Source: an uncultured Pseudomonadota bacterium (lineage in GTDB: Bacteria > Pseudomonadota > Alphaproteobacteria > Rs-D84). Taken from it: a DNA stretch of 39,931 nucleotides. Below are positions 13,394 to 28,690 of this stretch, piece by piece. Positions within the stretch are counted from its first letter, which is position 1. The number at the start of each line of letters is the position of its first letter. The stretch spans positions 1 to 39,931 of the forward strand of contig CADCAA010000012.1 in assembly GCA_902799285.1 (NCBI GenBank), given 5' to 3'. The position numbers and the translations under genes are program-made. The notes under the pieces were generated by a model that was not told the origin of the DNA, did not search any database, and worked only from the letters and a program-made list of their open reading frames with translations.

Positions 13394-13903
13394 TTAATAT
13401 CGTCCGATGCACCCAAGATATGAATTGCCGGTCGATTCCAAAATGTTTACAAACTTGCTTTGGTTGCGGCCGGAAAACAGCGCTAAAATTGTGCCTGCAT
13501 CTGTTGCCAACATATCGGCCACAGTCGCAATTGATGAATTCATTTTCTTGAAAAATCCACTGGTTGGGTAAATTTCGGCCGCCAACAACTGATTCGCACC
13601 ATGTGAATTTGCATTTTGATCGGATTGAATCACCATCAACTGACATTCAGGGGAAATTATCAATTTATCGACGACAACCGCACTGGCCCCCAATAATTCG
13701 CCCCACCAACCGGTCGAACCACAGAATATCGGGTAATATACCACCGCGTCCGGATTTTCGTTCATTATTGCGTCCAAATCCAGGTTATCTGTGATAACGG
13801 TCGGCATTGTGCCGGTCGCCCCGTTTATAACCTTGCGCGACAATTGATATTCGGCATCATCCGTCGTTTTGCGTGGCCAATAAAGAATCGGAAATTGTTT
13901 CAT
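13394..13903 (-). CDS. Orphan protein of unknown function
   Basis: This 169-residue protein starts MKQFPILYWPRK if the ATG at 13903 is used; an in-frame ATG at 13936 would add 11 residues. No signal peptide or transmembrane helix is evident. It contains GSTGWWGELLGASAVVVDKL near the middle and a Ser/Ala-rich C-terminal half. I do not recognise a family. A TATACT box lies about 11 bases before ATG 13903 and no Shine-Dalgarno is visible, so leaderless translation is possible. It lies between the HAD-tdk operon and the VirB6-like block, on the same strand as both. Confidence 0.65.
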   Translation of the reverse strand: MKQFPILYWPRKTTDDAEYQLSRKVINGATGTMPTVITDNLDLDAIMNENPDAVVYYPIFCGSTGWWGELLGASAVVVDKLIISPECQLMVIQSDQNANSHGANQLLAAEIYPTSGFFKKMNSSIATVADMLATDAGTILALFSGRNQSKFVNILESTGNSYLGCIGRY

Positions 13904-13972
13904 CACGATATACAGTATACCAGATTCGGACGACATAAAAAAGGGGGTGCAAGCAAATAAAGCACTTGATTT

Positions 13973-15289
13973 TTATTTTTTTGCAGATTGCCACCAGTTT
14001 TTCGCGCCATTCCACACTTTTTTAATATCATTTTTAGCCGTTTTATAATAATCATCCGATATTGTTATACTGAATAACGACTTTATCAGGGCCGGAATCA
14101 TTACCATAAACATCGTCATAAAGATGCCCAGCAAGATTATTGTTATCAATGATGTATTTTTTGATGTTTCCATCAAGCCGTCTATTAAAAGTTTCGAATC
14201 GTTTTGGGTTATGGCCTCTTGGATAACAGATGCACCACCCCAATCGCTGAATATAGATGTCAGCACGATAATGGAAAATGTGATAAATATTCCCGTCAAT
14301 GCCAACCCCAATGTGCCAGATATAACATCATCAATTGTTTGCTTTATATTACCCTTGCCGGACGGAAATATTTTCCAGCCATCAAACAACCAACTGAGCA
14401 TGGTCAAAGGCAGCAAAATTAAGTCAATCGATAGTTTTACGAATATTTCCAAGAAATACAATGGTATCGGCAATAATGCCGCCAAATACAGGCCCAAAAT
14501 CAATAATCCTGTCAATAACAATGGTAAATTCGGAAAGATTGGTATATCAAATACCAGTTTATGCATATAATCGTTATTAAACGCCATATTTAACATAGTC
14601 CAACCGATTGTCATTCCCAGTCCCGTCATTTGGTGAACATTGGCAATTTGGCACGTCAAATTATGACGAAAACGTGGTGAAAACGCGTTGATAGATGATT
14701 GCTGGTTATCCGCATCGATGCTTTGCCTGTCGGCAACGGCCGTCGCAATTATACAATTTGCATAATTTTTACGCGCGTCGGATACGGACATTGTATAATT
14801 CATAGAAAGTCCGACATCAAATATGGGTTCAATCACAATACTGGAAATCATTCGTGGCAAAGGCACGGCCAATAATGCGATGACAAATAAAACCTTGGCA
14901 ATATGGGTTCCAAATTTGCCACCGATATCCCAACCGTTTGTCAATCCCTTGGCCGATGGTCCGATATAGGTCGACAATAATTGCCATGCAAACCATATTG
15001 CCGTTAACGCAATCGCAAATGGAATTATTACAGTCCCCAGATAATGATATGTTTTTGGCAATATTCCAGACATTGTGGCAACGATATCTGAAAATAATTT
15101 ACATGACCAACATGTTGAAAAAAAACTCATCGCATCAGATAAATTTACCGGTGATACACTGCGAAAAATGGAATAGCCGATTATTCCGCCGCCAAACACA
15201 ATACCACCAACCGCAAGTGCAGAAAATGCGCCAGCGGAAAGCGGTAAAAACGATACAAATACTATCCAAAATTTTTTTAGCCAATTCAT
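13973..15289 (-). CDS. VirB6/TrbL-like membrane protein 1
   Basis: This is a 438-residue polytopic inner-membrane protein of VirB6/TrbL character, the family that forms the translocation platform of type IV secretion systems. It has a hydrophobic N-terminal segment (about 7-40), then a CWSC pair (Cys60, Cys63), several helices, a central loop with further cysteines (about 178 and 213), and a family-like LLPLTMLSWLFDGW segment. The C-terminal tail is basic and Trp-rich (VWNGAKNWWQSAKK). The same CWSC motif occurs in VirB6-like protein 3. It is divergent from the other four copies across 49 bases. The family assignment rests on topology and motif flavour, not an alignment. Confidence 0.75.
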   Translation of the reverse strand: MNWLKKFWIVFVSFLPLSAGAFSALAVGGIVFGGGIIGYSIFRSVSPVNLSDAMSFFSTCWSCKLFSDIVATMSGILPKTYHYLGTVIIPFAIALTAIWFAWQLLSTYIGPSAKGLTNGWDIGGKFGTHIAKVLFVIALLAVPLPRMISSIVIEPIFDVGLSMNYTMSVSDARKNYANCIIATAVADRQSIDADNQQSSINAFSPRFRHNLTCQIANVHQMTGLGMTIGWTMLNMAFNNDYMHKLVFDIPIFPNLPLLLTGLLILGLYLAALLPIPLYFLEIFVKLSIDLILLPLTMLSWLFDGWKIFPSGKGNIKQTIDDVISGTLGLALTGIFITFSIIVLTSIFSDWGGASVIQEAITQNDSKLLIDGLMETSKNTSLITIILLGIFMTMFMVMIPALIKSLFSITISDDYYKTAKNDIKKVWNGAKNWWQSAKK

Positions 15290-15296
15290 GATTTTA

Positions 15297-15330
15297 ATTA
15301 TAACATATTTTTATTGAAATATGGTATAAT
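15297..15330. promoter_or_regulatory. Divergent leaderless promoters of the VirB6-like block
   Basis: The 49-base gap holds two perfect TATAAT boxes, one per strand: 15297-15302 on the minus strand and 15325-15330 on the plus strand. They are 7 and 8 bases from their respective ATGs. The -35 regions are weak. No Shine-Dalgarno fits in the gap, so both mRNAs are probably leaderless and may need an activator. Confidence 0.55.
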
Positions 15331-15338
15331 TATCAAGT

Positions 15339-16610
15339 ATGAAATTTATTAAACGATTTTTGTGCGGATTATGTTTGATATTTGGGGCTTTTGCGCCAGA
15401 TATTGCTTTTGCTGGATGGGGGCTGATTGATATTGATTCTTTGGATATTTCAAAGTTAGTTCCAATCGTGTTGGATTCTTTTATGTTTGTGGCAAATGGG
15501 ACGTATGCGTATTTCGTTGGCGAACATCATGACGGAATTATTTATTTATTGGTGTGGGGATTTTTACTGTTTTATATCGCGTTATATTTAATCAAACTGT
15601 ATATACCAAAATTTTGGACAACGACATTCGGTTTCAAATCTGGCGATACCATTGACAAAGTCGGCGGAATGAAAATTGCTGAAAACATTGTCAAACCATC
15701 TATTCGCGCATTGGTTGCGGTTATTGTATTATTACCATTGCGCCCAACATTTATTACGGAAAATTTAATCAATCCTGTATTAAAATTTGGTTCGATTTAT
15801 ACAACTGAAATTATCAATGTATCAACGGGTATGGGTATTGGTGGTGGTCGCGAAATTAGTTGTCCGCGTGATTTGCTGGACCAAGGATGGTTAAGTCGCG
15901 AATCTTGCAATTATTTAATCCAACCTGTGCATATTTTATCCCAGGCAAATAATACGGTTATCAAACGCGGGTTCAGATATTTATCCAGCGGGCTTTCTTC
16001 GTTGGCAACATTGATGGTTCACAACAGTGGCCAAGGTTTTATGAATATCATTACGGGAATTTTGCTGATTACAACATTTATTGGATGCAATGTATTTATG
16101 GCGTTATTGATTATCCAGGCAATATTTAATTTTGGGATGGCTGTGATTTTATATCCGTTTAATGTGGCGGCGTGGGTCGCAAAAAAAAGTGATGCTTGGT
16201 GTGATTTGTGGCCGGCTTTTTCAGGAATTATCGAAGGATTAAAACAAATTGTTATTACCATGATTGCGTGTGCGTTTATATTGTGTGTCAATATGGCATT
16301 GGTGCGCGCAATATTCCAGTGGAACAATTCTATGTTTGTTGCGGCGGCTGGGGGTGTGGCGTATTCTAATTTGCCGAATATGGGCGCGAACGCCAGTGGT
16401 TTTGGCGGACATTCTATGGTGTGGTTATCGTGCATACTGACATTTTTCTTGATGAACAAGATGTTTGCAATCACACGCGAAAAGTTGGTCGGATATGTTG
16501 GCAAAGATGCGACAGCGTTATTTGAATCGACCAAGACCAATGCCAAAGATTTGTGGGGCGGCGCAAAATCTACGTTCAGTGGCGTTAAAAAGATATTCAA
16601 AGGGAAATAA
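15339..16610 (+). CDS. VirB6/TrbL-like membrane protein 2
   Basis: This is a 423-residue polytopic protein. A signal peptide or first helix covers residues 1-25 (cleavage after DIAFA). Several hydrophobic helices follow, then a loop with a paired Cys (EISCPRD...SRESCNYL, about 172-193) and a Gly/Asn-rich extracytoplasmic loop near 340. The C-terminal tail is LWGGAKSTFSGVKKIFKGK, of the same basic type as in the other copies. The stop overlaps the next start by one base (TAATG). I call it VirB6-like because of size, topology and position in a run of similar genes. Confidence 0.75.
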   Translation: MKFIKRFLCGLCLIFGAFAPDIAFAGWGLIDIDSLDISKLVPIVLDSFMFVANGTYAYFVGEHHDGIIYLLVWGFLLFYIALYLIKLYIPKFWTTTFGFKSGDTIDKVGGMKIAENIVKPSIRALVAVIVLLPLRPTFITENLINPVLKFGSIYTTEIINVSTGMGIGGGREISCPRDLLDQGWLSRESCNYLIQPVHILSQANNTVIKRGFRYLSSGLSSLATLMVHNSGQGFMNIITGILLITTFIGCNVFMALLIIQAIFNFGMAVILYPFNVAAWVAKKSDAWCDLWPAFSGIIEGLKQIVITMIACAFILCVNMALVRAIFQWNNSMFVAAAGGVAYSNLPNMGANASGFGGHSMVWLSCILTFFLMNKMFAITREKLVGYVGKDATALFESTKTNAKDLWGGAKSTFSGVKKIFKGK

Positions 16611-17809
16611 TGACAGATTTGGGACAATCTTTTATAAACAGTACGGCGCAATGTTGGTCTTGCCCGGTGTTTGACCGATTGTTCCAGGTTGTGTCAAATG
16701 CGGCGGCCGCGGCATATGAAAAGTTTGTACCATTATGCACTGTTTTATTCTGTGTGATATTTGCATTTTATGTTTTTGGTGCGGTGTGGAAAAATTTAAC
16801 CACAGGATTTCAGGATGGTTGGTTTGCAAAATCTTTGCGGCCTGTATTTATCAATTCTATATTCGTTTTGGCGTTTTTGGGGCTGGGGGTTGCATTACCA
16901 CGTTTTATTACGACCGTCACTTTTGAACCCGTGGCATACGTGACACAAACCTATGCAACCGCCATGGTGAAAATGACGCCCGAGGCGGTGGCGGAACATG
17001 TGACATATGAACCGTTGGATATACAGGATGAAAAAGGTATTTTCCGCGCACAACTGCGTGATGCAATTATCAATACCGCCAAGGTGACAATTACACAATT
17101 TCAAGGTTTTATGAAATTGGGTGTGGCTATTATGGACGCTGGACTTTCGTGGGGGATGTTTTTCGGTATTGGGGCGTTTTTCAAACATTTGATATTGATT
17201 GCGATTGGCGCATATTTGTTTTGGGCATTTTTTAAAATGTTTTTCAGATTTTTATGTTATTTCGCAGATGTGATTATTGCGATGGCGATGTTTGCGTTTT
17301 TCTTTCCGTTGTCTTTGGTGACATCTGCATTCAAAGAGGCCGCGGATTTGCCTTCGTGGTTATCGTGGATAAAAAGTTTAGGCAAAGGTGTTGGTGTTGA
17401 ACAAATTAAAAATTTAATTAGTTCAATTATTTCGTTGGGCGCAGCCGTTATTACTTATACCGTTATTTTGGTTATTATCGTAAAGTTCTTTGCCGATCCG
17501 GATGGCGGAATAAATAATTTTGAAACACTGATGGCGTCGGTTATGGACGGGACCATATTTGAAATGGATTTGGATACAACCGGCATCGATGATTTAAGTT
17601 TAACCAGTGTTATCGTTTTGGTATTCGTTTTAACATTTATCTATGAAAACATACCAAAAGTGACTAATATGATTTTGGGTATGTTTGAAGTTTCAGCAGA
17701 TAAAAACGAGGCAGGTAAAAAATTGGGCGATGAGTTTATGACAACAACCAAGGGATTTTACAATTTAGGTAAAAATGTTGTAAAAACTATTGCAGGTAAA
17801 AAGGCATAA
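16610..17809 (+). CDS. VirB6/TrbL-like membrane protein 3
   Basis: This is a 399-residue polytopic protein. It begins with a soluble segment carrying CWSCPVF (Cys15, Cys18), the same motif as in protein 1. A long first helix (about 40-65), a FEPVAYVTQTYA segment, and a cluster of aromatic-rich helices around 180-245 follow; a further helix is at about 330-355. It ends in a Lys-rich tail (GKNVVKTIAGKKA). The start codon overlaps the stop of the previous gene and the next gene begins 5 bases after its stop. The layout matches VirB6/TrbL family proteins. The substrate or partner cannot be told. Confidence 0.77.
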   Translation: MTDLGQSFINSTAQCWSCPVFDRLFQVVSNAAAAAYEKFVPLCTVLFCVIFAFYVFGAVWKNLTTGFQDGWFAKSLRPVFINSIFVLAFLGLGVALPRFITTVTFEPVAYVTQTYATAMVKMTPEAVAEHVTYEPLDIQDEKGIFRAQLRDAIINTAKVTITQFQGFMKLGVAIMDAGLSWGMFFGIGAFFKHLILIAIGAYLFWAFFKMFFRFLCYFADVIIAMAMFAFFFPLSLVTSAFKEAADLPSWLSWIKSLGKGVGVEQIKNLISSIISLGAAVITYTVILVIIVKFFADPDGGINNFETLMASVMDGTIFEMDLDTTGIDDLSLTSVIVLVFVLTFIYENIPKVTNMILGMFEVSADKNEAGKKLGDEFMTTTKGFYNLGKNVVKTIAGKKA

Positions 17810-17814
17810 AAAGC

Positions 17815-19341
17815 ATGGGCAAATTTCGGTGGATTTCTATATTACTGAAAATTTTGATGATAATCGCCGCATTATCGTTGGGTATTTGGTATTTGTCTTC
17901 ATCGATTGGCGGGGCGGCATTGACATATACTTCTGTTGATAATTTTGTTTTGGCAATTGGGGCACGGGGCGGCGTTGAAAATGTCGGCACTATGTTTTTG
18001 GGTAAATATGTTGTTGATTTGCTGAATATGTTGGGCCAGGCATCCGAAATATTTTGGGCAGGTATTGTTAAAAATTTGTGGATTTTGATGGCCGCTGGAT
18101 TTGCGATTTATATGTTTATATCGGCAATAAAATATGTGTGGGAAAAATCAAAACAAAATGCGTCGTATACTGATAAAGCAAACGATATTGATTTCAAAAC
18201 TTGGTTTAATCCGGTGTGGAAATTGGGTTTGCGTATCGCTATTGCCGGTGTGGCAATTGGCGCATTGGGTGCCGGCGGCGCGGAATCTTTGAAGGTTGTA
18301 TCCGAAATTTTGATTTCACCGATATTGTATATTGGCTCGGCTTTGTCTATGGCGGCAACGGGCATAAATTCGGCCACAGATTGTAATGCAATTTTGGGTG
18401 CGACCGAGTTATCGGGTGCTATGGCGCCCGTATCGGGTTCGTTTATGTGCGTGCTGGGGAATTTATATTCAATTATGTTGGCCGGGGCCGCGGGCGGGTT
18501 TGCGTTAATGAACTATGCTTGGTTGGGTATGGGTGGCGGTTTATTGACGTGGATATCGGGTCTGTTGTTAGTGTTGGCATTTTTGGTTGTGGGATTTGAT
18601 TTATTTTTTCAAATATTTTCTGTGCTATTCAAGGTTGTGTTTGTTATCATATTCTTGCCAATTTTAATTGCGGCGGCCGCATATGAAAAAGTTTGGAAAG
18701 TGGCGTCCGGATTATTCAGAAAATCATTAGAAATTGTTATCAAGGCCGCGATTTCTATATTATCAATTACACTGAAAATTGTGTTATTGTTTTCGATATT
18801 ATATTATTCTGCGGACGCGATGTTTCCGGGTCCGGTTGATGGATATACCGCCATTTTGCCGCCATTGTTCGAGGCACCACAACATGAAAACGTTAATGTT
18901 TGCAGTATCACACAAAATATTACACCGGAAACAGAATCCGTTATGCATGCTTTTGCCGTGTGCGAGGCACAATCCAAAGACGCCGATGGTTTGGTTGATG
19001 CGGATTTATTCAAACCGTGTTTTGACCAACAAAAACAAATTATTGAATCAATACATCCGGGAGCATTTAATTTCTTGGGGGATACTTGGTCGTTTTTGAT
19101 AACTATGTTTGGATTATTTTTATTATATTATTTCGTGCTGAGTCCGAAAATCGATAAATTGATACCGGCGGGCAAGGTTAAATTGCCACTGACACATGGT
19201 GAAGATACAGATATGTCAACCGGCGAAGAATTTGATATCGGTAAATGGACATACGATTTGGGACAAAAGGTTTGGCGCGCGCCAAAGAAAATCTTCGATG
19301 GAACGGTTAAAACATTAAAGGACAATGGGTTTATTAAATGA
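17815..19341 (+). CDS. VirB6/TrbL-like membrane protein 4
   Basis: At 508 residues this is the longest of the five. The N-terminal helix (about 10-32) is followed by helices near 80-105, 140-165 and 220-270, and a long hydrophobic stretch around 225-330 includes VVFVIIFLPILIAAAAYEK, which resembles the conserved VirB6 core. An extracytoplasmic loop (about 340-410) has three cysteines. A late helix (about 420-440) leads to a soluble basic C-terminus (KVWRAPKKIFDGTVKTLKDNG). The stop overlaps the next ATG (ATGA). It is presumably an inner-membrane channel component. Confidence 0.75.
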   Translation: MGKFRWISILLKILMIIAALSLGIWYLSSSIGGAALTYTSVDNFVLAIGARGGVENVGTMFLGKYVVDLLNMLGQASEIFWAGIVKNLWILMAAGFAIYMFISAIKYVWEKSKQNASYTDKANDIDFKTWFNPVWKLGLRIAIAGVAIGALGAGGAESLKVVSEILISPILYIGSALSMAATGINSATDCNAILGATELSGAMAPVSGSFMCVLGNLYSIMLAGAAGGFALMNYAWLGMGGGLLTWISGLLLVLAFLVVGFDLFFQIFSVLFKVVFVIIFLPILIAAAAYEKVWKVASGLFRKSLEIVIKAAISILSITLKIVLLFSILYYSADAMFPGPVDGYTAILPPLFEAPQHENVNVCSITQNITPETESVMHAFAVCEAQSKDADGLVDADLFKPCFDQQKQIIESIHPGAFNFLGDTWSFLITMFGLFLLYYFVLSPKIDKLIPAGKVKLPLTHGEDTDMSTGEEFDIGKWTYDLGQKVWRAPKKIFDGTVKTLKDNGFIK

Positions 19342-20636
19342 TAAAACTGCGCGACATTTGTCGAAAGATTTTAATTGTTATATTCGCATTGTTTATTACG
19401 ATGCCGGTGTTCGCCGCCGACGAGGTCGGTGGTTTGCAGTCTGCCCTGCCCGACCAAATCATTGGCGATTATGGTATGTGGGCAACCGAACACAATAGAC
19501 GTGAAGTGACGGCGCGCATTACCGAAGAATTAAGTCATTTTGGTCCAACAGCAACAACCGTATCAAATGCATATGTTCCGATTGAGGCAAAAATAGGTTT
19601 GGCATTTATGGGCGGTATGGCCAAGGTTGGCCAGGCACTGGATTCGTCATTGGTTTCATTTGCAATAATGTTTATGTTGATTGCGTATGCTTTCTGGGTC
19701 GCTTTCGAGGCATATAATTTAATTGGCAGTGGGGCTGACGCAAAAAAAGTTGTAAAAGATATTATCATCAAAGGCATTTGGATTTCTGTGTGGTTGATTA
19801 TATTGCGTATTGGAATTGCGGAAACATTTGCGATGATTATGATGCCGATTGTGTCGTTTGGCGCATTTATATCAAATACTATTTGGGATTCGATGACGCA
19901 TATTGCCGGTATTTCTTTGCCTAATACTTGCGAGGCTATCAAAATTTATGCCGAACAAAATACGCCAGAATGTTTAAATATAACCGCCGAATCTGCCGCA
20001 AATTTATTGTGTATTCCGACACAGATGTCTGGATTTTTTGTGACAACAATTGGTATCGGTTGGAAATGGGTTGTCGGCAGTGTCGGGTTCAGTTTCTTTG
20101 CCGCGGTGATTGGATTGTACATCACATATTTATCATTAAAATGTATTTGGAAATATTTATTCTTTGCGTTGGGCGTAATTGCGGATTTGTTTTTAGCATT
20201 ATTATTATTGCCTTTTACCGCAATCGCAGAAACAACCGCAAAAACACAATATAAAGGTGTTGCGGGCGATATATTTAATTCTTTTTTGGGCATATTCAAA
20301 ACCGAAAGTTTAGAAGTGCAAATAAATCGTTTTATCCAGGCGGCATTATATTTTATTTGTTTGGCAATATCGGTTGGCGTATCAATATCTTTGTTATCGT
20401 TTATTATCGATCCAAATACGGGCGCATTATTGGGTGGTTATAGTGGTTTTACCGGTGCGGTTATTTTGGTTTTGACTCTGTTGTTAGTTATATATATGGC
20501 TGACAAATCCAAATCTTTGGCCGAAAATTGGGGTGGAAAAATTGATTCTGGATTGGGCGACAAATTGCAAGGCGAAGTTAAAAAACTTTGGGGCGGCACG
20601 AAAAATCTGTGGAAACAGGTACGTGGTAAAAAATAA
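19338..20636 (+). CDS. VirB6/TrbL-like membrane protein 5
   Basis: This is a 432-residue protein with a signal peptide (residues 1-26, cleavage after VFA). Helices lie near 105-130 and 145-170. A cysteine-containing extracytoplasmic loop (TCEAI...PECLN...LLCIPTQ, about 196-228) is followed by more helices, and the conserved-looking DLFLALLLLPFTAIAET segment lies around 290-306. The C-terminal tail KKLWGGTKNLWKQVRGKK closely resembles that of protein 2. It ends 3 bases before the convergent uvrD stop, leaving no room for a terminator between them. Confidence 0.75.
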   Translation: MIKLRDICRKILIVIFALFITMPVFAADEVGGLQSALPDQIIGDYGMWATEHNRREVTARITEELSHFGPTATTVSNAYVPIEAKIGLAFMGGMAKVGQALDSSLVSFAIMFMLIAYAFWVAFEAYNLIGSGADAKKVVKDIIIKGIWISVWLIILRIGIAETFAMIMMPIVSFGAFISNTIWDSMTHIAGISLPNTCEAIKIYAEQNTPECLNITAESAANLLCIPTQMSGFFVTTIGIGWKWVVGSVGFSFFAAVIGLYITYLSLKCIWKYLFFALGVIADLFLALLLLPFTAIAETTAKTQYKGVAGDIFNSFLGIFKTESLEVQINRFIQAALYFICLAISVGVSISLLSFIIDPNTGALLGGYSGFTGAVILVLTLLLVIYMADKSKSLAENWGGKIDSGLGDKLQGEVKKLWGGTKNLWKQVRGKK

Positions 20637-22765: not shown

Positions 22766-23446
22766 ATGGCACGCATTATTTGTTTTGATATTGAAACGAC
22801 CGGATTTGAATGGACACGTGGCGACCGTTGCATTGAAATTGGCGCGGTAGAATTGGTGGATGGTAAACTTACCGACAATACTTTTCACGAATATATAAAC
22901 CCCGAGGGGAAAATTATTCCGCCCGAAACATATATGGTGCATAAAATTTCAAATGCCTTTTTGGAAGACAAACCCAAAATGAGTGAGATTGCCCCAAAAT
23001 TTTTAGACTTTATCCAGGACAGTCCCGTTGTCGCGCACAATGGTTTTGATTTCGACTTTCCATTTATGAATTTTGAATTGGCTAAATTAGGATTGCGCCA
23101 GATTTCACGCGACCAACAGCGCGATTCAATTGTAATTGCGCGCAACCGTGTTTTCGGACCCAAGGCATATACTTTGGATGCATTGGCGAAATGGTTTGGT
23201 GTATCATTGACCGCGCGTGCGGATGCACACGGCGCGTTAATCGACGCGGAAATTTTGGCCAAGGTGTTTTTGGAATTGGAAAATACTGCGCCCGCGCCGG
23301 ATATTCACGACACAATCGCCGAACAACATCAGGCCTTTTTGAAACATCCAAAAATTGGTGCAAACTTTCCGCGGCGCAATTTCCCAGCGCACCAGGATGA
23401 ATTAGACAATCACAACGCATTTATGGAAAAATTATTGGCGAATTAA
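22766..23446 (+). CDS. dnaQ: DNA polymerase III epsilon subunit (proofreading exonuclease)
   Basis: This 226-residue DEDDh 3'-5' exonuclease proofreads for the replicative polymerase. Exo I is FDIETTGFE (Asp8, Glu10), Exo II is VVAHNGFDFDFPF, and Exo III is DAHGALIDAE with the catalytic His and Asp. The C-terminal tail that would bind the alpha subunit is short and hydrophilic. The stop codon shares the palindromic TTAA with the convergent Cys-rich gene (4-base overlap). Confidence 0.93.
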   Translation: MARIICFDIETTGFEWTRGDRCIEIGAVELVDGKLTDNTFHEYINPEGKIIPPETYMVHKISNAFLEDKPKMSEIAPKFLDFIQDSPVVAHNGFDFDFPFMNFELAKLGLRQISRDQQRDSIVIARNRVFGPKAYTLDALAKWFGVSLTARADAHGALIDAEILAKVFLELENTAPAPDIHDTIAEQHQAFLKHPKIGANFPRRNFPAHQDELDNHNAFMEKLLAN

Positions 23447-25626
23447 GAACACGTATTGTGTTCCGATGTACCGGATGTGCCACCAGATGGGGTTTCGCCT
23501 GTGTCACATGCCTTGCAAGTGCCGTATTCATCGCGGTATTTATCGGTCGGACATATTGCCAGGCATGAACCGTTCCACGCACTGTATCCGTCATTACATC
23601 TGCATTGGGTATTCACGCAACCACCAATTGTGCGGTTTGCGATTGTTGCCGTACTGCACGAATTTGATGCACTAACCGGTGTATATGTTGAATTATCCGG
23701 GCACAACAATGATTGATAGAATATTTCGGAAATACCTTCGATACACGTTGATTGATGTTCTGCGTCACATGGCGTGCAATTGGATGGCGTATTATCCAAT
23801 TGTGTTGGGTTTTCAACATGCATAACCCAATTCATTGCGTTCGCAGCACCAGTTGAGCACATATTTGCAAATACCGCATAAGAACAAGTCAATGCAACAT
23901 TACGGCATGCGCCGGTCATTACGCCTTTGATACTGGATACAGATGCCACCGACGACCAAGAATTAACCTGGGTCACCTGTTGATTATAACATGCGGCAAC
24001 ATCAGTCATACAGGTTGATGCATAATCCGCAATAATTTGCTGTTGCGCGGATTTAATATTGACCATTGCGCGTTGAACGTAATTCAACACAACATCGTTA
24101 TATGGATTATATGTTTCGCCAGACGCGTTGTATGTGAACTGTTGACATTTGTCCAACACGGCACGACATAATCCACCATCTTTGACGGTTGCGCCCGTTC
24201 CAATTTTGGTCAGCAAATGTTTGATAATGCATGTGCCATCGCGATTGTCTGTGGCTTTGCAATTTGTTTCGTTGATTGTGACGGTGTTTGCCGATGACAA
24301 TTTCGCAGAATCAATTGCGGCATTAAAGTTTTCCATAAAATCTGTGATATTTGTAATATCCTGGCCCAGGACGACATTGCCATTTTCATCGATATAACGT
24401 TTGGTCGGATCCAGGCATTTTGAATAATCTGAACCACACACCATATCATCAGTCATACAGGATTCCAACGCACCAATGCAACCTTTGGCATCGTATTGAT
24501 TTTTGTTTTGCAATACGGCCAGGCGCGCCTTTTGCAGCATCAGGCCCGCGCTGCGCACATTGGATTGCAGCGTTTCGTTCATTTTTTTCAGGCCTTGTTC
24601 ATACGCGATACAATCTTTATCAATTGCCAAATCGTAATTGCCGGTAATCTGGGTCGATGTTGCGCCGACATCCACGCAATTATTCAAAATTGTTTTGCAA
24701 CGTTTTTTCGCCGCGTTATACAGCGCAGTGCCACGTTTGCTGGAAATACTGGAATTATCACTGTTCAGGAAATCCAGACTGAAAATATCGGCACTGTCGT
24801 CAGAAAAATCCAATTCCAAATCCAAACCAAATTCATTATCGGCAATGGACGATGTTTGGGTAGTCGGGTCTTTGATTAAAGCCTCGATTTTTGATAACAT
24901 ATTGCGCGTTTCGGACGTGTCGCGTTTGCCACTCAGTTCGGCTTCGGCCTCGGTTTCTGTCATAATGGCACGGATTTCATCCGCAGACAGACCGACATAA
25001 CGAATACGTTGCGCAACGGTATTTAATTCGTCGTTTGCTTTGGTGACTGCATCCTGGACAGACGAATATTTAGATAAATTTGCGGAACAACTGCATCGTT
25101 TTTGATTGCTGTCGACAACCGCGCAAAATTGGTCCATACATTCGTTATACTGTTCCTGGCACGATTTGTTCAGGCTTGCGTTTTGTTCCAATAATTCTTT
25201 GGCTGCGTTGACATCAGCCGCAGTGACGGGTTTGGCCGCCGCACGGCCGGTCACATTACGTTCGATATTGGCAAAACGCGTGGCCACATTTATTGGCGTA
25301 TAGTCCAAACTTTCGGATTGTTTGCGCGATTTAATGGTGTTGTTGCGTGTTTCTTTTGAACGCGATGCAACTCTGGACACTGTACCAGCATCAGCCGTGC
25401 GTGATGCCACACGTGGCGCAGTATCGGTCGACCGTGTCGGTGTTTTTTCAGTACGCGTTGTAGTATTTGTTGTGGCACGGACTGTACCATTGCGTACAGG
25501 CGCAGCCGCACGCGCATTTTCAGTGGACGCATCATTTTTTGCGGTTGCGCGCGAACCATCCAATGCCGCCATGGCATTGGGCGCAAACATTATCGCCGCC
25601 AAAAAGCATAAAACTACATTCCTCAT
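23443..25626 (-). CDS. Exported cysteine-rich protein A
   Basis: This 727-residue protein has a signal peptide (cleavage after NAMA, residue 20). A basic Arg/Thr/Ser-rich low-complexity region (about 25-100) contains two VASR repeats. A cysteine motif at 156-180 has the form C-x6-C-x4-C-x9-C-x-C, with MD after the second Cys and KANxEL 16 residues after the last. A middle part with an acidic stretch and dispersed cysteines follows. The C-terminal EGF-like segment (about 670-715: CRCNDGYSAWNGSC, CKAC) ends in a Gly/Ser/Thr-rich tail. Exported protein B has the same motif at the same spacing. There is no Shine-Dalgarno; a TATAAT lies 10 bases before ATG. The function is unknown; surface or secretion-associated is inferred. 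Confidence 0.82.
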   Translation of the reverse strand: MRNVVLCFLAAIMFAPNAMAALDGSRATAKNDASTENARAAAPVRNGTVRATTNTTTRTEKTPTRSTDTAPRVASRTADAGTVSRVASRSKETRNNTIKSRKQSESLDYTPINVATRFANIERNVTGRAAAKPVTAADVNAAKELLEQNASLNKSCQEQYNECMDQFCAVVDSNQKRCSCSANLSKYSSVQDAVTKANDELNTVAQRIRYVGLSADEIRAIMTETEAEAELSGKRDTSETRNMLSKIEALIKDPTTQTSSIADNEFGLDLELDFSDDSADIFSLDFLNSDNSSISSKRGTALYNAAKKRCKTILNNCVDVGATSTQITGNYDLAIDKDCIAYEQGLKKMNETLQSNVRSAGLMLQKARLAVLQNKNQYDAKGCIGALESCMTDDMVCGSDYSKCLDPTKRYIDENGNVVLGQDITNITDFMENFNAAIDSAKLSSANTVTINETNCKATDNRDGTCIIKHLLTKIGTGATVKDGGLCRAVLDKCQQFTYNASGETYNPYNDVVLNYVQRAMVNIKSAQQQIIADYASTCMTDVAACYNQQVTQVNSWSSVASVSSIKGVMTGACRNVALTCSYAVFANMCSTGAANAMNWVMHVENPTQLDNTPSNCTPCDAEHQSTCIEGISEIFYQSLLCPDNSTYTPVSASNSCSTATIANRTIGGCVNTQCRCNDGYSAWNGSCLAICPTDKYRDEYGTCKACDTGETPSGGTSGTSEHNTCS

Positions 25627-26449: not shown

Positions 26450-28690
26450 CTAAAACTTTATGCAAAGATTAACATTTTTTTGGCAATTGTCAAGTATTTT
26501 GTAGAAAACTTTGTGCAAAGAGCATCCTATTGCCAGAAGATTAGCTACCACACCCCGCCCTACGGACCCTCCCCTCTCTAGAGGGGAACTAAAAAACGCC
26601 CGGGCGGGCGTTTTTGTTTGTTTTTGATTAAATTTACGCAGACACGCCTCGCGCAGTTCCGCCGAACTGGCGTTACGGACGATACCACTTAACATATTTT
26701 GCATATCGGTACGATTTGTTGTAAATGTCGTCGAAACGGCCGCACCGTGCAAAATTTCGTTCAATGTCACAATATTGCGACATGTATTTGTGCCAGCATC
26801 CGCGTTATACGTACAACTATTTGTATCCTTCTCGTCTACAATTGCCATTGTAATTTGTGTCGGATTGCAAATCATTGTTTCATAACAATGCGGAACGTTG
26901 GCAACCTGGGCACAGTATGTTTTTATGCGTGCCGTTGTCCAATTTTCTTCGTTTGCATTTTCGTTATAGCAATCCCAGATTTCACTGATGCACTCGTTAA
27001 AGTTCGAAATTGCGGCGGTTGCCTCAGACTTGTTGGTTTCTTGTTCTTCGTTATAGAATTCCAGACGTTTTTGACGCAATGCCTGTTCGGCCGCAATTTT
27101 TTGATAATTAATATTTTGCGCTGTATTCTTTAATGCCGTGCCGTATGTATCACATGCAGCGTTCGCATCCAGCAAATATTTTTGCATAATGCTGCGACGG
27201 GCATCAGCCACCGGCCCACGCAAAGATGCGTACGGGTCGCCAGAGCTGGACGAATAGCCAAAGCAAGTTGCAGATGTTGATGTTGTCGAACCGGTCGAAC
27301 CGCGTTCGTTCAACTGAACCTCGCCCGCGCCGTCGCCAGATGTTGTGACGGAAATCGCGCTGTTATAATTATACGGGCATGAAGACGACGCGCCATTTGC
27401 GCATTTGCCGATTTTGTTGCCAGAAGAATCTGTGCCGGATGGCGGGGTTCCGCAAGCCTCGTATATTCCGTTAAAGCAAGAATCCAATACGCGGCCACAA
27501 ACATTGTTATGGGCATATTCAAATAATTCATAGCCCCATTTGTTTGCCAAACCGTCCAATGCCGCAGATGATGTATCAACAGTTTCCGTAATCCCAGACA
27601 AACCGTTTACGACACCCGCGATTGTTGTATATTGATTCAACAAACTGTTCGTGTCATCGGTTGTATATTGTTTTGCCAAATCCTTGGCATCGGCCCACGC
27701 CTTTAACGACGCCAAAATATCAGAACCAGAACCATTGATTTCTTTCAGGTCAAATCCATCAATACTGTTATCGCTGCAATAGTATGGAATGCCACTTGTT
27801 TGTTTGGAATTACCATTCCATGTTGGATGTTCGGCATACCAATCAGCATCAGATTCATCGCCTAACTGAACATTATCCTTGTAAGACACACAATTCATAA
27901 CCTTTTCAGCGTCGGTCAGTTTGAAAGCCTCGCTAACATCTTTGCCCTTGGTCGAAATCAACAAAGACAATTGACCGGACAGGCTGATTAATTCCTCGTT
28001 CGCCTTTTCCAATGCGGTTTCGGCGGCCAAGAAATTCGTGGCACGGCCGGCACAAGAACAACGACCCTTGGTATCACTGCGCGCAGTACAAATTTCATCC
28101 ATACAGGTATAATATCCCTCGAGACACGTGCTGTACGCATCGGCAGAAATCAGACCAGTTGTAGAATCGATGATATTCGAATAATTTCCTGTATACAATT
28201 TATTCGTCAAATAAGAAACCGTGACCCCAGAACCACTGGACGCGCGAATTCCGGTACCAACCATACTGACGCGTGATGGCGTTGTTGCCGTGCGCGCGAT
28301 TACGCGACTGTTATTACGGGATGCCACGCCACGCATTGTTGCATTGTTTGTGCGCGATGCCACGGAACGGGTTGCAGCCTGAACATCCTGGACCGTGCCG
28401 GTGTTTGTGTTGCGGACACTGACGCTGCGGGTGCGGATATTGCGCGGTGCATTATTTACACGGGATGACGTTGTTGCACGCGACACCGTTGAACGCGCCG
28501 CAGATGCACGGGAATTCGTCGTTGCACGTGCAGAATTTGTGCGGTTTGCCGTCGCCGTCGCAGCCGGTGCAATTGGATCACCGTATGCCCGCATATCGGA
28601 AAAAACCGACCACATCAGCAAACCACCGATTAATAAAAATACGGTGCCTGCAGCATTTTTGCACGCATTTGTAATTTTTTGGTTTGTCAT
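26450..28690 (-). CDS. Exported cysteine-rich protein B, read-through C-terminus
   Basis: This 746-residue frame has an N-terminal hydrophobic helix (about 14-30) as signal or anchor. A long basic Arg/Ser/Thr/Asn low-complexity region (about 45-145) contains VASR repeats. A cysteine motif at 189-213 has exactly the spacing of protein A (C-x6-C-x4-C-x9-C-x-C, then KANEEL 16 residues later). A Cys-containing middle region, a heptad-like helix around 510-570 and further cysteines follow. The last ~54 residues are encoded by a terminator hairpin, a dispersed repeat and the rplU promoter region, so the natural C-terminus is probably near residue 690. AGGGAG precedes the ATG. The function is unknown. 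Confidence 0.8.
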   Translation of the reverse strand: MTNQKITNACKNAAGTVFLLIGGLLMWSVFSDMRAYGDPIAPAATATANRTNSARATTNSRASAARSTVSRATTSSRVNNAPRNIRTRSVSVRNTNTGTVQDVQAATRSVASRTNNATMRGVASRNNSRVIARTATTPSRVSMVGTGIRASSGSGVTVSYLTNKLYTGNYSNIIDSTTGLISADAYSTCLEGYYTCMDEICTARSDTKGRCSCAGRATNFLAAETALEKANEELISLSGQLSLLISTKGKDVSEAFKLTDAEKVMNCVSYKDNVQLGDESDADWYAEHPTWNGNSKQTSGIPYYCSDNSIDGFDLKEINGSGSDILASLKAWADAKDLAKQYTTDDTNSLLNQYTTIAGVVNGLSGITETVDTSSAALDGLANKWGYELFEYAHNNVCGRVLDSCFNGIYEACGTPPSGTDSSGNKIGKCANGASSSCPYNYNSAISVTTSGDGAGEVQLNERGSTGSTTSTSATCFGYSSSSGDPYASLRGPVADARRSIMQKYLLDANAACDTYGTALKNTAQNINYQKIAAEQALRQKRLEFYNEEQETNKSEATAAISNFNECISEIWDCYNENANEENWTTARIKTYCAQVANVPHCYETMICNPTQITMAIVDEKDTNSCTYNADAGTNTCRNIVTLNEILHGAAVSTTFTTNRTDMQNMLSGIVRNASSAELREACLRKFNQKQTKTPARAFFSSPLERGGSVGRGVVANLLAIGCSLHKVFYKILDNCQKNVNLCIKF
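26466..26493 (-). promoter_or_regulatory. Promoter of rplU-rpmA
   Basis: On the minus strand a perfect TTGACA (26488-26493) and TAATCT (26466-26471) are separated by 16 bases, about 65 bases before the rplU start. It falls within the last codons of the frame of Cys-rich protein B. Confidence 0.6.
26530..26590. repeat. Dispersed repeat with CCCCTC hairpin
   Basis: The sequence CACACCCCGCCCTACGGACC leads into a hairpin (CCCCTC TCTA GAGGGG, 26571-26586). I recognise this type of intergenic repeat from many bacterial genomes, where it is often translated as SSPLERGG...GRGVV. Here it is read as the tail of protein B. Confidence 0.6.
26591..26616 (-). terminator. Terminator inside the 3' end of Cys-rich protein B
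   Basis: An AACGCCCG / CGGGCGTT stem is followed on the minus strand by a T6 run. Its codons read KTPARAFF in the frame of protein B, so it marks the probable ancestral end of the gene. Confidence 0.75.

Follow-up and report, generated by a model that had tools for sequence, protein, structure and literature searches.

The 39,931-nucleotide (nt) contig CADCAA010000012.1 (assembly GCA_902799285.1; this whole stretch is called the window here) comes from an uncultured alphaproteobacterium of the order Rs-D84 and carries a block of five consecutive genes, P1–P5, each encoding a protein with many hydrophobic segments (Table 1). An earlier sequence-only reading of this DNA had described the block as five polytopic VirB6/TrbL-like proteins of 399–508 residues, one encoded on the minus strand and four on the plus strand, and the list of open reading frames (ORFs) gives exactly these. 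The other details on which it relied were also confirmed: P2 and P3 overlap by 1 nt (TAATG) and P4 and P5 by 4 nt (ATGA), with 5 nt between P3 and P4, the 40-residue tails of the five proteins are net basic (K+R 8–9 vs D+E 3–6), and scans of the window's proteins brought up no other gene of a type IV secretion system (T4SS).

The block is a stable feature of the family Enterousiaceae. Of 80 loci in a named genome collection, 75 hold all five genes and the remaining five run into the end of a contig or stretch, i.e. the full set is found in 75/75 uncut family loci. P1–P5 share 23–76% identity with their counterparts in the relatives read. The relatives, with labels such as Candidatus Enterousia or ‘Alphaproteobacteria/Rickettsiales bacterium’, were sampled from rumen and from the gut of chicken, horse and termite. 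The divergent 1+4 order, with a gap of 44–49 bp, is nearly universal, the exception being genus g4 (L062, L063), where all five genes lie on one strand. The short stretch between P1 and P2 probably holds the promoters of both transcripts.

Table 1. Features of the VirB6-type block and its flank, with positions in the window (aa, amino acids; AF2, AlphaFold2)
Feature	Position	Strand	Remarks
P1, VirB6-type, 438 aa	13973–15289	-	AF2 model; TrwI fold match; bridge to PF04610
P1–P2 divergent intergenic stretch, 49 bp, AT-rich	15290–15338		median 44 bp across 80 loci
P2, VirB6-type, 423 aa	15339–16610	+	present in all uncut loci; paralogous to P5 and P1
P3, VirB6-type, 399 aa	16610–17809	+	matched in 55/60 family genomes; closest paralog P1
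P4, VirB6-type, 508 aa	17815–19341	+	AF2 model; TrwI fold match; orthologs in three families
P5, VirB6-type, 432 aa	19338–20636	+	paralogous to P2 and P1; groups with position 5 of family f4
orf180, soluble, 180 aa, conserved	13394–13936	-	directly downstream of P1, same strand

Profile comparison identifies P1–P5 as paralogs of one another, with E-values of 5e-13 for P1–P3, 6e-11 for P2–P5, 2e-9 for P1–P5, 4e-8 for P1–P4 and 8e-7 for P4–P5, where reversed-profile controls gave 0.018 or worse (about 0.02–0.7); the pairs P2–P3 and P2–P4 are connected only via the other paralogs, and the closest pair, P1/P3, shares about 20% identity. The sequence-only reading had looked to a search with PF04610 (TrbL/VirB6), and here the link emerged through intermediates and not as a direct match. 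Within the ORF set searched, the best matches of the P1 profile to proteins of another alphaproteobacterial family reach 3e-23; one of these proteins, L242:1801–3567, is matched at 1.6e-22 and is itself above the curated PF04610 cut-off (G226:C32:2881-3252, 36.7 bits; 2.7e-5). Judged by these profile links, P1–P5 are homologous to the PF04610 family. Weak PF04610 matches also occur at positions 1 and 4 of the corresponding block in f4, another family of the order (1.7e-4 and 3e-4), and are the same size as chance matches elsewhere. A Pfam scan of all P3, P4 and P5 orthologs returned scattered weak matches to membrane families, inconsistent between orthologs, and since these were judged compositional, the 1e-4 matches in f4 are not proof alone. 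A FAM70 match in 20 P5 orthologs (3.5e-6) was likewise judged compositional, a match of P1 to TIGR03758 (0.038) was dismissed as noise, and direct hidden Markov model tests of P1–P5 with Pfam, NCBIfam and PADLOC brought no informative match. When about twelve canonical VirB6 proteins of larger genomes were compared by profile, the scores were no better than those of the reversed controls; as some of the rows were wrongly framed ORFs, this counts neither for nor against.

Structure prediction, the other check that had been proposed, also pointed to VirB6. Single-chain AF2 models built from ortholog alignments were made for P1 (predicted local distance difference test, pLDDT, 76; predicted template modelling score, pTM, 0.69) and P4 (pLDDT 75, pTM 0.72). 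For both, the best solved structure is TrwI/VirB6 of plasmid R388, which also fills the top three PDB rows in each case: P1 aligns with 257/261 TrwI residues at Z 14.7 and a root-mean-square deviation (rmsd) of 4.0, and P4 with 264/268 at Z 12.7 and rmsd 4.7. The fourth-best match of the P1 model is DotA of the Dot/Icm system (Z 9.9), its best non-T4SS chain has Z 8.4, and for P4 the next chain after TrwI has Z 7.4, the TrwI rows standing 5–6 Z units above the non-T4SS rows. According to the models, then, P1 and P4 have the VirB6 fold.

The remaining T4SS genes lie elsewhere in the same metagenome-assembled genome (MAG; 857,750 bases, 47 contigs, 94% complete). The block sits inside the 40-kb contig C12, virB3–virB4 and virD4 are on contig C3, and virB8–virB9–virB10 are on contig C25, with matches of 1.1e-9 for VirB4, 2.8e-9 for VirB8, 1.2e-22 for VirB9/CagX, 9.5e-14 for VirB10, 3.9e-51 for VirD4 and, just below the Pfam cut-off, 3.8e-4 for VirB3. 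The same parts are present in relatives from six families of the order. A genome search for virB4, virB8–11 and virD4, as the sequence-only reading had proposed, which covered the MAG by protein family and in selected stretches, therefore found all but VirB11, and a dispersed T4SS, one of the two possibilities it had entertained, was borne out. We put at about 0.92 the probability that the block supplies the VirB6 proteins of a chromosomal VirB/D4-type T4SS with its other genes on other contigs. VirB4 (PF03135) has one match in 26/30 relatives and never two, VirB9 (PF03524) a single match in 21/21, and VirB8 (PF04335) one in the window's MAG and a second, weak match in 10/21 relatives. VirB2-type pilins can hardly be detected. 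In 25/30 relatives there is a second T2SSE ATPase, of about 320–390 aa, which is read as VirB11-like. A strong T2SSE ATPase on C3 first looked like VirB11 as well and was rejected: it sits in a pil operon (L032:3491–8171; PilO, PilP-like, PilQ ATPase, PilR), which shares its contig with virB3–virB4, and because PilO, PilQ and PilR homologs adjoin in one R64 (IncI1)-type operon for a thin pilus (PF06864, 4.9e-15; PF00437, 2.6e-64; PF00482, 1.6e-21), the enzyme is PilQ-like. In the published account of Rs-D84, type IV pili are named for a different lineage only. At 501 aa the VirB9/CagX protein L046:11394–12899 is long, and its C-terminal end is SPOR-like (8e-4, slightly under the cut-off), which suggests that the outer-membrane core binds peptidoglycan.

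Several results weigh against reading the block in this way. PF04610 gave no direct match to any protein of the window, and PDB sequence profile searches with P1 and P4 hit neither a solved VirB6 nor anything else. The Foldseek E-values of the TrwI matches are only around 0.01, and VIA-align cautions that Z values below about 13 can arise by chance in helical proteins; the assignment of P2, P3 and P5 to VirB6 follows from paralogy and not from models. VirB11 and VirB2 were searched for in the window's 94% complete MAG and neither was found, and the block (sought by P1 and P3) is absent from three MAGs of the same genus, which may reflect missing contigs or true loss; MAGs may miss contigs, and this applies to every absence given here. 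The missing direct match, together with the scattered weak matches to other membrane families, would also suit five unrelated polytopic transporters (ComEC-like, an exporter or another kind) that merely resemble VirB6. This is very improbable given the TrwI structure matches, the homology bridge and the T4SS genes in the same genomes, and the weak matches to other families are not consistent from one ortholog to the next.

The set extends beyond one family. In f4 and in f6, a further family of the order, five genes each stand in tandem and in the same orientation, and uvrD, which was expected beside the block there, does not flank it. In a tree (support given as bootstrap/Shimodaira–Hasegawa-like approximate likelihood ratio test), P4 joins position 4 of f4 and f6 (100/98), P5 joins position 5 of f4 (96/90) and P2 joins position 2 of f4 weakly (90/46); P1 and P3 are without resolved partners in f4 or f6. 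Orthology of P4 and P5, and weakly of P2, across families implies that the set is, at least in part, older than the families. None of the five Enterousiaceae proteins extends far beyond core size, and the f4 proteins are longer; two of the three f4 P5 orthologs, viz. those of L206 (10499–13213) and L203 (2540–5500), carry an M23 peptidase domain, which on sequence grounds perhaps takes over the wall-opening job of VirB1. Family f27 (L240, L242, L243) also has five consecutive VirB6-type genes. Its 15 proteins form a clade of their own (100/99), which indicates that five copies arose there in a separate radiation, although sequences as divergent as these call for the usual caution. Four-gene VirB6-type clusters are common elsewhere.

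Cysteines distinguish the members of the set. A CWxC-like box just before the first VirB6 core helix is invariant in P1 (CWSC, C60/C63) and P3 (CWSC, C15/C18) and present in 89% of P4 orthologs, P4 of the window's lineage having lost it; it is absent from P2 and P5. A central-loop pair is invariant in P1 (C179/C213), P2 (C175/C190), P4 (C190/C212, with a further pair C383/C402) and P5 (C198/C225), and the box and loop cysteines of P1 are kept in 48/48 orthologs. The loop pairs are consistent with disulfides in a periplasmic position. The CxxC box recurs in most copies of f4, f6 and f27; it is common to many alphaproteobacterial VirB6 copies (homologs in L200–L251) and could serve as a search motif.

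In the central stalk or protochannel of their systems, R388 VirB6 and DotA are pentamers of one protein (PMC9259494, PMC12857230). By analogy with R388 and Dot/Icm, P1–P5 would have an inner-membrane anchor and lie mostly in the periplasm, and would make up, above VirB3/VirB4, the pentameric base of the stalk or protochannel; VirD4 would select the substrates, and the base would pass them towards the VirB9/VirB10 outer-membrane core and from there, probably, to a neighbouring cell. Secretion itself, the substrate and the recipient are what we infer for the Rs-D84 system; DNA uptake was considered as another conceivable role.

How five paralogs would share this task can be pictured in more than one way. 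Because the solved VirB6 and DotA rings are pentamers, P1–P5 could tentatively be seen as an obligate hetero-pentameric ring in which each occurs once, in place of the homopentamer known from R388 and Dot/Icm; we hold this with low confidence and regard it as rather doubtful. It would give an asymmetric stalk base in which the paralogs take fixed positions, and an N-terminal CxxC would be present on three of its subunits in most of the family. Mixing in one ring is favoured by the fixed number, the overlapping P2–P5 genes, the orthology at the level of the order and the solved pentamers; a strict rule of one gene per seat fits poorly with the lineages that have four copies. For Ehrlichia, a 2009 paper cited in PMC12857230, going by its title, reportedly found four VirB6 paralogs and VirB9 to be expressed and to interact.

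It is also possible, if still short of probable, that each paralog forms its own homopentamer and that the five are alternative channels for different substrates or conditions. The great distance between the paralogs, even P1 and P3, and the reported single-protein rings of R388 and DotA (PMC9259494, PMC12857230) would suit such variants. Interchangeable variants would, however, be expected to come and go more easily, particularly in genomes of 0.7–1.1 Mb, but P2–P5 overlap tightly, the number is fixed in every uncut locus, orthology across families holds for P4 and probably for P5 and P2, and there is one copy each of VirB4 and VirB9. A ring built by one or two of the five, P4 for example, with the others as VirB6-derived accessory proteins of the envelope or surface, is unlikely. 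In its favour, two of the four Anaplasma VirB6 paralogs are reported to be surface-exposed (PMC7648143), the N-terminal CxxC divides P1, P3 and most P4 from P2 and P5, and f4 P5 orthologs carry an M23 peptidase; the alignments of P1 and P4, however, each span almost all of TrwI, and the five Enterousiaceae proteins are near core size and lack large extensions.

Among known systems, one of the closest is rvh of the Rickettsiales, to which the sequence-only reading had also compared the block; the multiplication it named is documented, with five VirB6 proteins in Rickettsia (PMC2653234) and four paralogs in Anaplasma (PMC7648143). Both rvh (rvhB6a–e) and the Rs-D84 system have multiplied VirB6 into five divergent tandem paralogs, belong to reduced alphaproteobacterial genomes and have their T4SS genes dispersed in islets (PMC2653234); a VirB11-like ATPase is a further common point for most Rs-D84 relatives. 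They differ in that the Rs-D84 block stands apart from virB3–virB4, whereas virB3–virB4–virB6a–e in one islet is a hallmark of rvh, in that virB4 and virB9 are single, where rvh duplicates VirB4, VirB8 and VirB9 (PMC11077975), and in that the Rs-D84 proteins have 399–508 aa, vs about 670–1150, and give no direct PF04610 match. As a single VirB4, a single VirB9 and an unlinked virB6 block fail the rvh hallmarks (PMC11077975, PMC2653234), the block is not filed as rvh; it is filed in the VirB6 family of a VirB/D4-type T4SS and works like rvh. With R388 Trw it shares the fold of P1 and P4 and the partners VirB3, VirB4, VirB8, VirB9, VirB10 and VirD4, Trw having one virB6 gene in a single locus on a conjugative plasmid. 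DotA resembles P1 in fold and is a VirB6-equivalent pentamer (PMC12857230), but it is one much larger protein of a type IVB system, whereas the Rs-D84 parts match VirB/CagX-type models. The f27 clusters share the five consecutive genes and the CxxC box and differ in forming a separate clade. The number five was reached separately in f27 at least, possibly in Rickettsia too.

Next to the block, orf180 adjoins P1 on the same strand in 94/94 loci where it was found, usually with a gap of 64–69 bp and at 51–90% identity; a Pfam scan of it gave no match, and it is a possible T4SS accessory gene that has gone unrecognised. Further along the window, 23443–25626 and 26450–28690 (minus strand) encode two related large proteins (25% identity over 194 aa) with no Pfam match, of which the former, found in 47 fetched loci, has a signal peptide and a Cys-rich C-terminus; both are candidate surface proteins.

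Candidatus Enterousia, the group of the window's bacterium, belongs to Rs-D84, has a genome of about 1 Mb or less and is predicted to be an obligate symbiont or parasite (PMC12306168). A text search of that paper brought up neither secretion nor a T4SS, and no T4SS report for Rs-D84 was found in the open-access literature. The block, which the sequence-only reading had named as its best candidate for an ‘undescribed system’, fits that label only in part: it belongs to a VirB/D4-type T4SS with VirB6 multiplication of the rvh kind. A VirB/D4-type T4SS conserved across the order is now placed in uncultured, sub-megabase gut bacteria, and gives these proposed obligate symbionts or parasites a concrete cell-contact machine. 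Since solved VirB6 rings have exactly five identical subunits, the lineage may build its ring from five different ones, and the old puzzle of VirB6 multiplication in the Rickettsiales becomes testable: five ring subunits, and five fixed paralogs, reached more than once.

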